Of a stretch of 34,522 nt of DNA, positions 14,405-19,199 are shown piece by piece. The DNA comes from a virus. A program made the position numbers and the translations under genes. The stretch is taken from the IMG/VR virus record IMGVR_UViG_3300042289_000426, positions 1-34,522 of that record. The stretch is one strand, 5' to 3'. Below the pieces are notes generated by a model, which saw only the letters and a program-made list of their open reading frames with translations, had not been told where the DNA came from and did not search any database. Each line of letters begins with the position of its first letter. The first letter of the stretch is position 1.

Positions 14405-16117
14405 TTACTCATAGCCTCCGCCAAAGACAAAGCTGTCCCAGGCTTCTTGCTGAGCCATCTCCGCGTCTGCTATCGTTCTAGCGCGAATCTCGCGCATTCT
14501 TGATAGGTCGACACGAATAGTGCTGCTATCATCATGTTGTACTGGGGCGGAGATCTCCAGGTTCTCGCAGACTACCCAGAGGGCAATCGCTAGGGACATG
14601 ACCAAGTCGTCGTGGCAGCCATAGTCGGCGGCGTATTTTACTCCACCCCCAGGGAGTTCCTGCCTTACAAACTGGTGGAGTTCTTCGAGGAGTAGCGGGT
14701 GCATGCCGCGCAAGCCTGGCTTGTCACTGTTTGCAGTAGCAAGATACTCTGCTAGCTTGTCAACCACCATGCGGCGTCTGTCAGCCGACATTGGGAATGA
14801 GAACAAGCGGTCCGATCTCTGGACCCCTCGGCGCCCAGTAGGGCGAAAAATGTATGGATGCTCGTACCCGAGGTTTCTATGTAGCTCGTTGATAGGCAGC
14901 TGTCCTTGTCCACCCTGATCTTCCACAGCCAGTAGTGCTGGTCTACCCTGGCCTGTGTAGAATCTACCGAATAGGTCAATCTCTGCCGCCCACTCGACTG
15001 GTTCGACTGTATTGGCTCGATAAAAACCAACGATACGCGGAACACCATCCTCGTCAACACTCAACACATGGGCGGTCGAATAGTCGCCGCCACGCCCTTG
15101 GGCGGGGTCGGCACCGATGTAGTAGGCAAAGGATGGATCTGGAAAAATGTCTGCAACCCAGAAGTGACCGTTCTCGTCTTCTTCGAAGCCGATTCCGTTC
15201 TCATCCTGGACCAGGGTTCCCCTGGAGAAGGTGTCTGGGATGTCGTGGGGTAGGTTTACGAAGCGAGGGTTACCTGATTCACGGAATGCTTCCATGTCAT
15301 CTGATGGGTACTCTGAGTAGAACTCCCATGGGTTGGCTGCAAACTCTCGCCGCTTAGCCTCGTATTCTTTTTCAGAGATAAGGCGGGATGCTGACCATGG
15401 TTGAAAGAGTGGGACGAACTGGTTCTGCTTAGCCTTGGCACCCTTGTAGATCTTAGCGAACTCATTGTAGGCACCACGTGCGGTAGAGATAATGATCAAT
15501 CGCCCACCAGCGTCAGTCGTAGGCATGATGGTTCGATACGTGTTGGTGGGATCTGGCATGAGTGCGAACTCGTCGAGAATAACCATGGTTGCAGTTTCAC
15601 CAGCACCAGCAGTCTCTGTACCCGCGAATGACTTTACCTGACACTTCATTCCGTCAGGGAACTCGAACTCCAGCTTGTATTCAGCGGCCTTCTGTAAAGA
15701 AGGTCCGCGTTCTTTCATCCAGTCTGGTAAGAACTGATACATGAACTTGACCATACCAAGGTTTTTGTTGGCTGAGTCTTGGTTCTTTGAGACCAGGAGA
15801 AGGTTCGATCCAGGTTGGAACAGGCAGTGCCAGAGGATGTCGGCCATGGCTAGGGTGGTGAAACCGAGCTGACGGGCCTTGACTATGACCGTAAAACGGT
15901 TGTCATTCCACGTGTCGAGAGCCTCTTCCTGATAATCGAAGAGCTCGAACTTGGTACGACCGCGCTGATCCCACTTAGGCTGTACTTGGATGTAGACGTA
16001 GTTCTTGATGAAGTACCGCTTGTCAGCCGCACATCTACGCCACTCGAGTTCTACCCAAAGCTTCTGCTTCTTGCGGGCGAGCTTTACCTCAGAGGTCTTG
16101 TTCAGGGAAGTCATCAT
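14405..16117 (-). CDS. terL: Terminase large subunit (packaging ATPase and nuclease)
   Basis: A 570-residue protein with both terminase domains visible. The ATPase has a Walker A-type segment VKARQLGFTT at about 79-88, Walker B TMVILDEF at about 177-184 and a STARG coupling motif near 211-215. The RNase H-like nuclease shows acidic residues in YYIGADPAQG (D337), LLAVED (E399, D400) and GCHDDLVMSLA (D503, D504). The VxKARQxGxTT style is that of the classical large terminase family. It starts at tandem ATG codons 16117 and 16114, overlapping the preceding small gene. It drives DNA into the portal and cuts concatemers with the small subunit. Confidence 0.96.
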   Translation of the reverse strand: MMTSLNKTSEVKLARKKQKLWVELEWRRCAADKRYFIKNYVYIQVQPKWDQRGRTKFELFDYQEEALDTWNDNRFTVIVKARQLGFTTLAMADILWHCLFQPGSNLLLVSKNQDSANKNLGMVKFMYQFLPDWMKERGPSLQKAAEYKLEFEFPDGMKCQVKSFAGTETAGAGETATMVILDEFALMPDPTNTYRTIMPTTDAGGRLIIISTARGAYNEFAKIYKGAKAKQNQFVPLFQPWSASRLISEKEYEAKRREFAANPWEFYSEYPSDDMEAFRESGNPRFVNLPHDIPDTFSRGTLVQDENGIGFEEDENGHFWVADIFPDPSFAYYIGADPAQGRGGDYSTAHVLSVDEDGVPRIVGFYRANTVEPVEWAAEIDLFGRFYTGQGRPALLAVEDQGGQGQLPINELHRNLGYEHPYIFRPTGRRGVQRSDRLFSFPMSADRRRMVVDKLAEYLATANSDKPGLRGMHPLLLEELHQFVRQELPGGGVKYAADYGCHDDLVMSLAIALWVVCENLEISAPVQHDDSSTIRVDLSRMREIRARTIADAEMAQQEAWDSFVFGGGYE

Positions 16118-17333: not shown

Positions 17334-18043
17334 TCCCATTTGACCCGCGTTTTGTACAAACAGGCAGAAAAACCACTGTGACCTGCATCACAGGATTAGC
17401 GGACAAACGTGCCCAGCTCCGTCCGCATAAACCAGGGCCTTGTCCTAGCCTGGATGTCCGCTCCCTGGGCCCCTGATCTGCCTGGAATCAGGGCTTGGGT
17501 GGGCCTTCCCTGTCCAGGATACGGGGGTAGGTGTTTCAGGTAAAGACGTATTGAGCTATCCCAGGTGGGAGTCGGACACCGAAAATGGTGATAAAATGGC
17601 TGGTGGGTAGTACATACACACGACCCGACCCGAGCGGGGGATCCCCCAGGGGTCTGGGGCAGGGGCAACCAGGAAACCAGGACCAGGCCTGCCCTGCTCC
17701 CCGTCCTCCTGGCCGTCCCGATGTCCTGGCTGACCTGGCGGTCCTGGTCGGGGGGCAGGTCGGGATGGGCCGAGGCGACCCCACCCACACCTGCAAGCTG
17801 GACTGCCGAGAATCCCACCCAGCATTGGCCCCCTACCCCTGACGGACGGGGACGGCAGGGAACTGGAGACGGCGAGCTACAGCTCGACGGCTGCAGGGCG
17901 CAGGCTCTGGTGTCCCCGACACAGAACCCAGGACACCTGGCCCTTGTATCCTGGACAGGTGCCCCTACAGTCCTGGTTGCCCCAGCTCATCCAGCACCAG
18001 GAGCCTCACGGCTACGGAGCCTACCAGAACCTGTCAAGTATCC

Positions 18044-18096
18044 AAAACAACGGACACACAACAAGGCCTATGGCGCGCCGCCAGGAGGCGCCGCAC
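18044..18096. repeat. Diverged direct repeat, first copy
   Basis: Starting with AAAACAACGGACACACAACA, this stretch recurs exactly 101 bases downstream (18145-18197). The first 31 bases match at 26 positions, sharing CACAACAAGGCC, and the match continues more weakly for about 20 bases. It lies about 200 bases before the first early gene, where operators or promoter-proximal binding sites would be expected. Confidence 0.5.
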
Positions 18097-18144: not shown

Positions 18145-18197
18145 AAAACAACAAACGCACAACAAGGCCCCTGGCACCCCGCCATGGGACACCACAC
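18145..18197. repeat. Diverged direct repeat, second copy
   Basis: Second copy of the repeat at 18044-18096, starting AAAACAACAAACGCACAACA. Spacing between copies is 101 bases, close to an integral number of DNA helical turns. It lies about 60 bases before the first early gene. No known operator motif is recognised. Confidence 0.5.
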
Positions 18198-18258: not shown

Positions 18259-18750
18259 ATGACCACTCCCCGCCCCACCACACCAGCCGCCCGCATCAAG
18301 CGAGCCTTCGCTACCATCGAGAAGTACTACGACGAGGAATCAGGGCCCGCGCTGCTCGAGGTCCAGGCCTGCTGCCGCAGCTGCTCAACAAGCAACATCG
18401 ACGACACCGTCCCCACGGTCATCCTGTGGGAGGCCGACGGCAAGCTGAACAGCAAGCGCGGGTGGTACCGCCGACCCGCCGAGGACACGCCGTTCGTCGG
18501 ATACCTTGGGTACCTGAACCTGTCCGAGCACGACATGGACTCCGTGGTCAACGCCCTGGAATCTGTCGGTCTCGAGGTTGTCCGCCCCGCCGATGCGAAC
18601 ACCGCCATCAAGGTCACCATGTACCGCAACACCGAGCTCCGCCAGGCCTACCTGCGTGGCCTACGGGACGCGCTTGAGACCTTCTCCGACCTGGGCGTCG
18701 AGGACGCCTACGCTACCACCATCGCGGTGGAGAACGGAATCAAGGCATAA
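18259..18750 (+). CDS. First early-operon protein, DUF6891-like (tentative)
   Basis: A 163-residue protein. It has an N-terminal helical region (PAARIKRAFATIEKYYDEE), then ALLEVQACCRSCSTSN with a CCxxC cluster at about 38-42. A FVGYLGYLNLSEHDMDSVVNALESVGLEV segment follows, then beta strands (TAIKVTMYRN), then a C-terminal helix. The order cysteine cluster, aromatic beta region, VVxALxxxGLxV, xIxV strand resembles, from memory, bacterial DUF6891 proteins; this is unverified. Its codons are markedly GC-richer than those of the late genes. The ribosome site is weak (AGAAAG before the ATG). The TAA stop is followed after four bases by the hammerhead ribozyme, so the ribozyme defines the 3' end region of this message. 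Confidence 0.8.
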   Translation: MTTPRPTTPAARIKRAFATIEKYYDEESGPALLEVQACCRSCSTSNIDDTVPTVILWEADGKLNSKRGWYRRPAEDTPFVGYLGYLNLSEHDMDSVVNALESVGLEVVRPADANTAIKVTMYRNTELRQAYLRGLRDALETFSDLGVEDAYATTIAVENGIKA

Positions 18751-18754
18751 CACA

Positions 18755-18820
18755 GGCCGAAACCTGAAGGCGGTGATCACCGCCCTCGGGTCCAAGGGTC
18801 CGCCCCTTGCTGATGAGGCC
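18755..18820 (+). ncRNA. Type II hammerhead ribozyme
   Basis: All hammerhead elements are present in the stem-II-open order. Stem II is GGCC (18755-18758) with GGCC (18817-18820). G12-A13-A14 are GAA at 18759-18761. Stem III is ACCTGA (18762-18767) with TCGGGT (18786-18791), then an A/C mismatch, then GGCGGT (18769-18774) with ACCGCC (18779-18784) around a GATC loop. A15.1 pairs with U16.1, and the cleavage triplet is GTC, predicting a cut between 18792 and 18793. Stem I is CAAGGG (18793-18798) with CCCTTG (18804-18809) around a 5-nt loop. The core CTGATGA occupies 18810-18816. Cleavage would leave the next gene with a 65-nt leader bearing a 5' hydroxyl. The element fills the gap between two early genes. 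Confidence 0.9.
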
Positions 18821-18857
18821 CTCTCAACAGTCCCCACCCCAAACGAAAGGCACTACC

Positions 18858-19199
18858 GTGAGTAACAACATCCTCGACCAAATCAACCTGATAGAGCAGA
18901 CCTTCGGAATCAAGGTCGTCTACCACGACGTTCAGTCTGGCACTACCATCAAGTCCCAGTCCCACCGCCCCCTCTACCTGATAGCCCAGGAAATCAAGGC
19001 CGACTGGACCAAGGTCTACTTCGGTGCGGTCCCCTACCTAGACGCACTCTCGACCCTCGACCAAATCACCGACCGCTACTACGAGGACGACGCAGAGGAC
19101 ATCGTCCGCTACTTCCTCAGCAACGCCACAACATGGAAGGGCGACACCGCCCGACGCATCAAGGCCGAGCTGAAGGACATCCTGAAGGGAGCGAACTAA
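18858..19199 (+). CDS. Small early protein of unknown function, actinobacterial mobile-element style
   Basis: A 113-residue product starting at GTG 18858, behind GAAAGG. The open frame extends upstream to 18807 through the ribozyme's 3' part, but that extension is not protein-like. The sequence is mixed alpha/beta: FGIKVVYHDVQSG, then AQEIKADWTKVYFGAVPYLDAL, then AEDIVRYFLSNATTWKGDTARRIKAELKDIL. From memory, the YFGAVPYLxAM and FLxNAxxWxGxxARRIKxEL patterns recur in small proteins of actinobacterial phages and plasmids, with no assigned function. It is the first gene downstream of the ribozyme cut and is followed after one base by the next gene. Confidence 0.8.
   Translation: MSNNILDQINLIEQTFGIKVVYHDVQSGTTIKSQSHRPLYLIAQEIKADWTKVYFGAVPYLDALSTLDQITDRYYEDDAEDIVRYFLSNATTWKGDTARRIKAELKDILKGAN

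Follow-up and report, generated by a model that had tools for sequence, protein, structure and literature searches.

Type II hammerhead ribozymes occurring in clusters that flank genes were described in 2011 by Perreault et al. (PMC3088659), who proposed that they divide phage transcripts into units of an operon or of a single gene; of 18 consensus hammerheads, 14 were active in vitro, several clusters cleaved in vitro, and one clustered prophage set cleaved in E. coli. For HHphage, the hammerhead of the haloviruses HF1 and HF2, a transcript 5' end was mapped within three nucleotides of the cleavage site (PMC3088659). What hammerheads do in bacteria and in the viruses of bacteria has been described as an open question (PMC6155905).

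The window analysed here, i.e., the whole 34,522-nucleotide stretch of the IMG/VR record IMGVR_UViG_3300042289_000426, contains one such element in the gap between two rightward genes, as shown in Table 1. Every conserved base of the core, which includes C3U4G5A6N7G8A9, G12A13A14, the A15.1-U16.1 pair and H17, was read directly from the DNA, in agreement with the preliminary description, and 22 base pairs were counted across the three helices. The inner part of stem III pairs ACCUGA (18762-18767) with UCGGGU (18786-18791), with A15.1-U16.1 as its first pair and one G.U pair; it is followed by an A.C mismatch at 18768/18785 and by the outer part, in which GGCGGU (18769-18774) pairs with ACCGCC (18779-18784) around the loop GAUC, and stem I pairs CAAGGG (18793-18798) with CCCUUG (18804-18809) around the loop UCCGC. 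The RNAfold minimum of positions 18750-18825 is exactly the active three-way junction (-33.2 kcal/mol, z -2.6), and fold and descriptor both place stems I and III as loop-closed and stem II as open, which is the type II topology and the helix order claimed earlier. A strict type II descriptor, with limits of at least 5, 4 and 6 for stems I, II and III in the Markov comparison, matched the window once only and gave no match in any of 60 Markov-generated windows. The start of the motif four bases past the stop codon of the upstream gene and the coordinate of the predicted cut, with C17 located by hammerhead numbering, were likewise correctly given before.

Table 1. Features of the hammerhead locus and its neighbouring genes in the window (all on the strand shown).
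Feature	Position	Strand	Basis or remark
Type II hammerhead ribozyme, class B	18755..18820	+	Descriptor, RNAfold, covariance model R1
Stem II strand 1, GGCC	18755..18758	+	Partner 18817-18820; sequence
Core G12 A13 A14	18759..18761	+	Sequence; invariant in 56 relatives (bases in search pattern)
Stem III hairpin, 6 bp + A.C mismatch + 6 bp + GAUC loop	18762..18791	+	Sequence, fold
Predicted cleavage site, C17 (18792) / position 1.1 (18793)	18792..18793	+	Hammerhead numbering
Stem I hairpin, 6 bp, loop UCCGC	18793..18809	+	Sequence, fold
Core CUGAUGA (C3-A9)	18810..18816	+	Sequence; invariant in relatives except position 7 (bases in search pattern)
Stem II strand 2, GGCC	18817..18820	+	Sequence
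Tail CUCAACAG, tentative anti-core or latch hairpin	18823..18830	+	Folds; shuffle p 0.09
Upstream gene, 163 aa	18259..18750	+	ORF; stop TAA 18748-18750
Likely ribosome-binding site GAAAGG of downstream gene	18845..18850	+	7 nt before GTG start
Downstream gene, 113 aa, phrog_13953	18858..19199	+	ORF; PHROG E 1.9e-25

A covariance model, R1, was built from 56 dereplicated type II hammerheads of phages, the one in the window not being among them; for this purpose IMG/VR viral contigs were scanned with degenerate patterns, and the matches folding as type II were retained and dereplicated. R1 scored 18755-18820 at 52.3 bits (E 5.7e-15), a score that is not built in apart from the choice of class, and by the same model no second ribozyme was found in the window, the next best place reaching 12.9 bits in an alignment that skips most of the model. 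In the alignment of 56 rows, 97.4% of the cells pair and the covariation score is 0.81 versus 0.18 for shuffled data, values that are partly built in because the rows were picked by a pairing descriptor.

Pattern scans of IMG/VR exposed more than 370 distinct type II hammerheads across viral contigs, in two architectures. Class A corresponds to the published type II form (PMC3088659): stem II is 3 bp long, the stem I hairpin measures about 22 nt, and loop I pairs with the tail just past stem II. Class B was defined in this analysis by the length of stem II (at least 4 bp), that of the stem I hairpin (17-18 nt) and a fit to R1; its common traits are a UNANG-like loop I, found in the majority of members and not universal, the motif GAAAC...GUC, and an intergenic position directly 3' of a stop codon. 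Class B ribozymes are also carried by bacterial genomes, with loci in Asticcacaulis and Singulisphaera as examples. A pseudoknot of at least 4 pairs between loop I and the tail was observed in 82% of class A, against 24% with swapped tails, and in 13% of class B, against a background of 16%; since Perreault et al. noted many hammerheads without the pseudoknot (PMC3088659), class B may overlap their list. The ribozyme of the window belongs to class B by its 4-bp stem II, its 17-nt stem I hairpin and its fit to R1, and the longest pairing between its loop I and tail is 1 bp, where 4 or more are required for class A, so that this pseudoknot is absent. The type II reading of the preliminary description holds, but the loop I sequence, UCCGC, deviates from the consensus of class B, retaining the first U of UNANG and losing the A and the G, and no replacement pseudoknot makes up for it. 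Among 258 relatives, C at position 11 of the stem I hairpin was observed once and C at position 9 nine times. This departure and the absent pseudoknot leave the speed of cleavage uncertain, and the predicted ribozyme may be slow at cellular Mg2+.

No hammerhead was obtained from Rfam at the gathering cut-off over the whole window or at the locus. The family RF02276 (Hammerhead_II) scored 13.0 bits, where the cut-off is 37, and did so only in a scan restricted to 96 bases, so the above-threshold Rfam match anticipated in the preliminary description did not materialize; weak snoRNA and miRNA matches of Rfam in the window were rejected as chance. When members of the two classes were tested, Rfam recovered 7 of 11 class A hammerheads and 6 of 48 class B hammerheads, missing 42 of the latter. 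The low RF02276 score is thus ascribed to the limited coverage of that model, given the R1 score of the locus and the siblings that Rfam misses. By sequence, secondary structure and the independent covariance model, 18755-18820 is confirmed as a real type II hammerhead.

The neighbouring genes are separated by 107 nt. The upstream protein showed only a sub-threshold Pfam match, DUF6891, and no relatives of it were found among viral contigs; the downstream gene has 126 viral relatives, and the rightward block around the hammerhead also holds matches to an exonuclease and a DnaB-like helicase, i.e., replication genes. Among 80 relatives of the downstream gene, a hammerhead (class B) lies directly upstream only in contigs L061 and L063, indicating that the downstream gene itself is not the common factor. 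A close phage relative was not found, as the DNA matches were short and only to mycobacteriophages, and the best relatives of the large terminase (14405-16117, minus strand) among 50,697 phage records have about 30% identity or less, which points to a phage from a poorly sampled lineage. A 53-nt direct repeat with two copies (18044-18096 and 18145-18197; 77% identical, spacing 101) stands just upstream of the rightward block, and two long-range inverted repeats, namely 17509-17527 with 17941-17959 (19 nt at 89%) and 17659-17674 with 17971-17986 (16 nt at 94%), lie in the stretch that separates the leftward structural genes from the rightward early genes.

The placement relative to the upstream stop codon is a property of both classes. 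When ORFs were called by a simple procedure, the distance between the upstream ORF's stop and the start of the motif was -3 to 20 nt in 235 of the 288 class B and 72 of the 88 class A hammerheads, i.e., 82% of type II hammerheads versus 8% of random places (146 of 1880). In many of them the last base of the stop codon is shared with stem II, and a Shine-Dalgarno sequence and a start codon follow 3' at a median of 27-28 nt, so that the ribozyme fills the intergenic gap. The preliminary description had regarded the element as a gene separator in an early operon with a placement peculiar to this locus; it does lie between two genes of the rightward block, but the placement is not special here, since most of the phage type II hammerheads found sit directly past a stop codon. 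Arrays of hammerheads were also detected, with 10 in viral contig L149 and 8-9 in L190. In L190, L149, L104, L114, L116, L125 and L426, 4 to 10 type II hammerheads occur per few kilobases, and nearly every gene gap in these arrays has one. On the sequence evidence, the motif of the window, its class membership and its genomic placement are established.

It is highly probable that this is a genuine type II hammerhead in an early-gene gap at which the polycistronic RNA cuts itself between genes. In the early transcript, stem III, stem I and the core would fold once the second GGCC strand exits the polymerase, with self-cleavage then expected at 18792/18793. This would leave the upstream mRNA with a 2',3'-cyclic phosphate directly after the stem III hairpin, and the 5' end of the downstream mRNA, a hydroxyl followed by the stem I hairpin, would lie 65 nt ahead of the GTG start. 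Type II is the only permutation in which hairpins seal the two new ends, leaving only the 4-bp stem II open; with this layout the cut would divide the genes into units whose ends are protected and whose lifetimes may differ. We infer cleavage in the cell, protection of the ends and separate mRNA lifetimes, and the end hairpins from the topology. After cleavage, or where the cut comes late, the tail might close over the core strand and serve as a latch or a timer.

In class B, the tail 3' of stem II frequently complements the catalytic strand, with CUGAUG...CAUCAG or CUGACG...CGUCAG. Core-tail pairing of at least 5 bp-equivalents was observed in 57 of 160 distinct class B hammerheads from scans unbiased for the tail, against a mean of 6.1 and a maximum of 16 in shuffled data, and in 4 of 84 class A hammerheads against 3.4 expected, i.e., none beyond chance; one pattern scan biased to RTCAG tails was left out of this frequency and used only for base-to-base covariation and placement counts. 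After dereplication, position 7, which is the only core base free to vary, and the tail base were combined as T-A in 45 cases, C-G in 30, T-G in 6, C-A in 1 and T-T in 1, a covariation with a Fisher p of 2e-15 (7e-7 on the unbiased scans alone). On a tree inferred with both columns masked, which replaced a clustering of the tail-hairpin members that had put most of them in one group, a minimum of 30 changes was counted for position 7 and of 28 for the tail base; of six well-supported independent pairs, an average of 4.6 show the tail changing along with position 7, and none shows the opposite (sign test p 0.06). Near-identical natural ribozymes that differ by a compensatory change were found in the contig pairs L089/L231, L251/L257 and L272/L342. 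Two hammerheads with different core-tail pairs occur within one phage, L320, a compensatory difference inside a single genome, and the Rhodobacteraceae MAG contig L418 carries two class B hammerheads, both with the core-pairing tail ATCAG. The pairing takes core bases 3-8 and excludes the active fold; as the tail is transcribed last, it is read as a timer, with the cut made before the tail emerges, or as a latch that keeps the products apart. The covariation at the population level (CUGAYG...CRUCAG, position 7) appears to be new, although an earlier description of the hairpin or of class B is possible.

The ribozyme of the window might accordingly be a regulated or self-limiting element in which pairing of the tail with the core (CUGAYG with CRUCAG) abolishes the active fold and acts as a kinetic timer or product latch. 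The excess in class B with none in class A, the covariation of position 7, the repeated changes on the tree and the compensatory natural pairs all argue for it. Positions 18823-18830 can pair with 18810-18817 of the core (CUG.UGAG/CUCA.CAG, -6.0 kcal/mol), and folds including the tail go from the active form to the core-tail hairpin (-33.9 versus -33.0 kcal/mol, with tertiary contacts ignored). Against it, the pairing in the window is imperfect, with an A.A mismatch, and lacks significance, being equalled by 9% of shuffled tails (p about 0.09) and by 23% of the real 16-mers of the window; the second pairing register, which the window uses, shows no significant covariation in class B (p 0.13); strong core-tail pairing is missing in more than half of class B; and the sign test on the independent pairs reaches only p 0.06 by itself. 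In view of this weak tail, the regulated element is kept as a possible but clearly minor rival. A decayed or inactive relic that folds but cleaves too slowly to matter is an unlikely reading: loop I lacks the conserved residues of the class, no pseudoknot is formed, and once the tail is included the active form is the less stable one by about 0.9 kcal/mol, tertiary contacts not counted; yet a relic would not be expected to retain a complete core and three intact stems, as this element does, and the spacing from the stop codon is the same as in the siblings.

The gap might also harbour nothing more than a pair of hairpins that stabilize a 3' end or provide an RNase site, with the hammerhead likeness secondary, and two strong hairpins in the gap would indeed protect RNA ends anyway. 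This explanation is very improbable, as it does not account for the unpaired CUGANGA, GAA and UC in 56 relatives with unrelated stems, where the support comes from the number of loci and not from the invariance of these bases, which were part of the search pattern. Chance resemblance, which the Rfam score of only 13 bits and the simplicity of hammerhead motifs could suggest, is refuted statistically and retains a negligible probability, given the E value of the independent model, the lack of matches in the Markov-generated windows and the class-typical placement; the earlier judgement that such an agreement would hardly arise by chance is upheld. The self-cutting type II hammerhead in the early-gene gap stays the preferred reading of 18755-18820.

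The element itself belongs to a known kind, the type II hammerhead, and the class-wide anti-core hairpin is the part worth following. The hammerhead of the window represents a clean case missed by the standard Rfam model, as is most of a large related class, and type II hammerheads are seen here to start almost on top of stop codons. R1 would help to find many more sites and to check phage transcript maps at the predicted cuts. The covarying alternative hairpin provides a direct, testable hypothesis on how cleavage is limited or made irreversible. That a widespread phage hammerhead class possesses a built-in second state, in which base pairing of the following RNA to the catalytic strand eliminates the active fold, is proposed tentatively; if so, cleavage would occur only briefly behind the polymerase, or the products would be latched apart, and phage operons would hold arrays of self-timed RNA scissors at stop codons.

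Compared with its class B siblings (L087, L190, L231, L061 and L063), the window has the same lengths of stem II (4 bp) and of the stem I hairpin (17 nt), the motif GAAAC...GUC and the placement right past a stop codon, and differs from them in the loop I sequence UCCGC, the A.C mismatch of stem III and the imperfect pairing of tail and core. With the published type II hammerheads (PMC3088659; RF02276) it shares the core, the three helices and the open stem II, and it likewise adjoins phage genes, in keeping with the phage and prophage placement for which transcript processing was proposed (PMC3088659); the consensus of that study leans on the pseudoknot between loop I and the 3' tail, whereas the window and class B are without it. 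HHphage of HF1 and HF2 (PMC3088659), like the hammerhead of the window, lies just upstream of an early phage gene, but it represents a core variant of haloarchaeal viruses, whereas the core of the window is standard.
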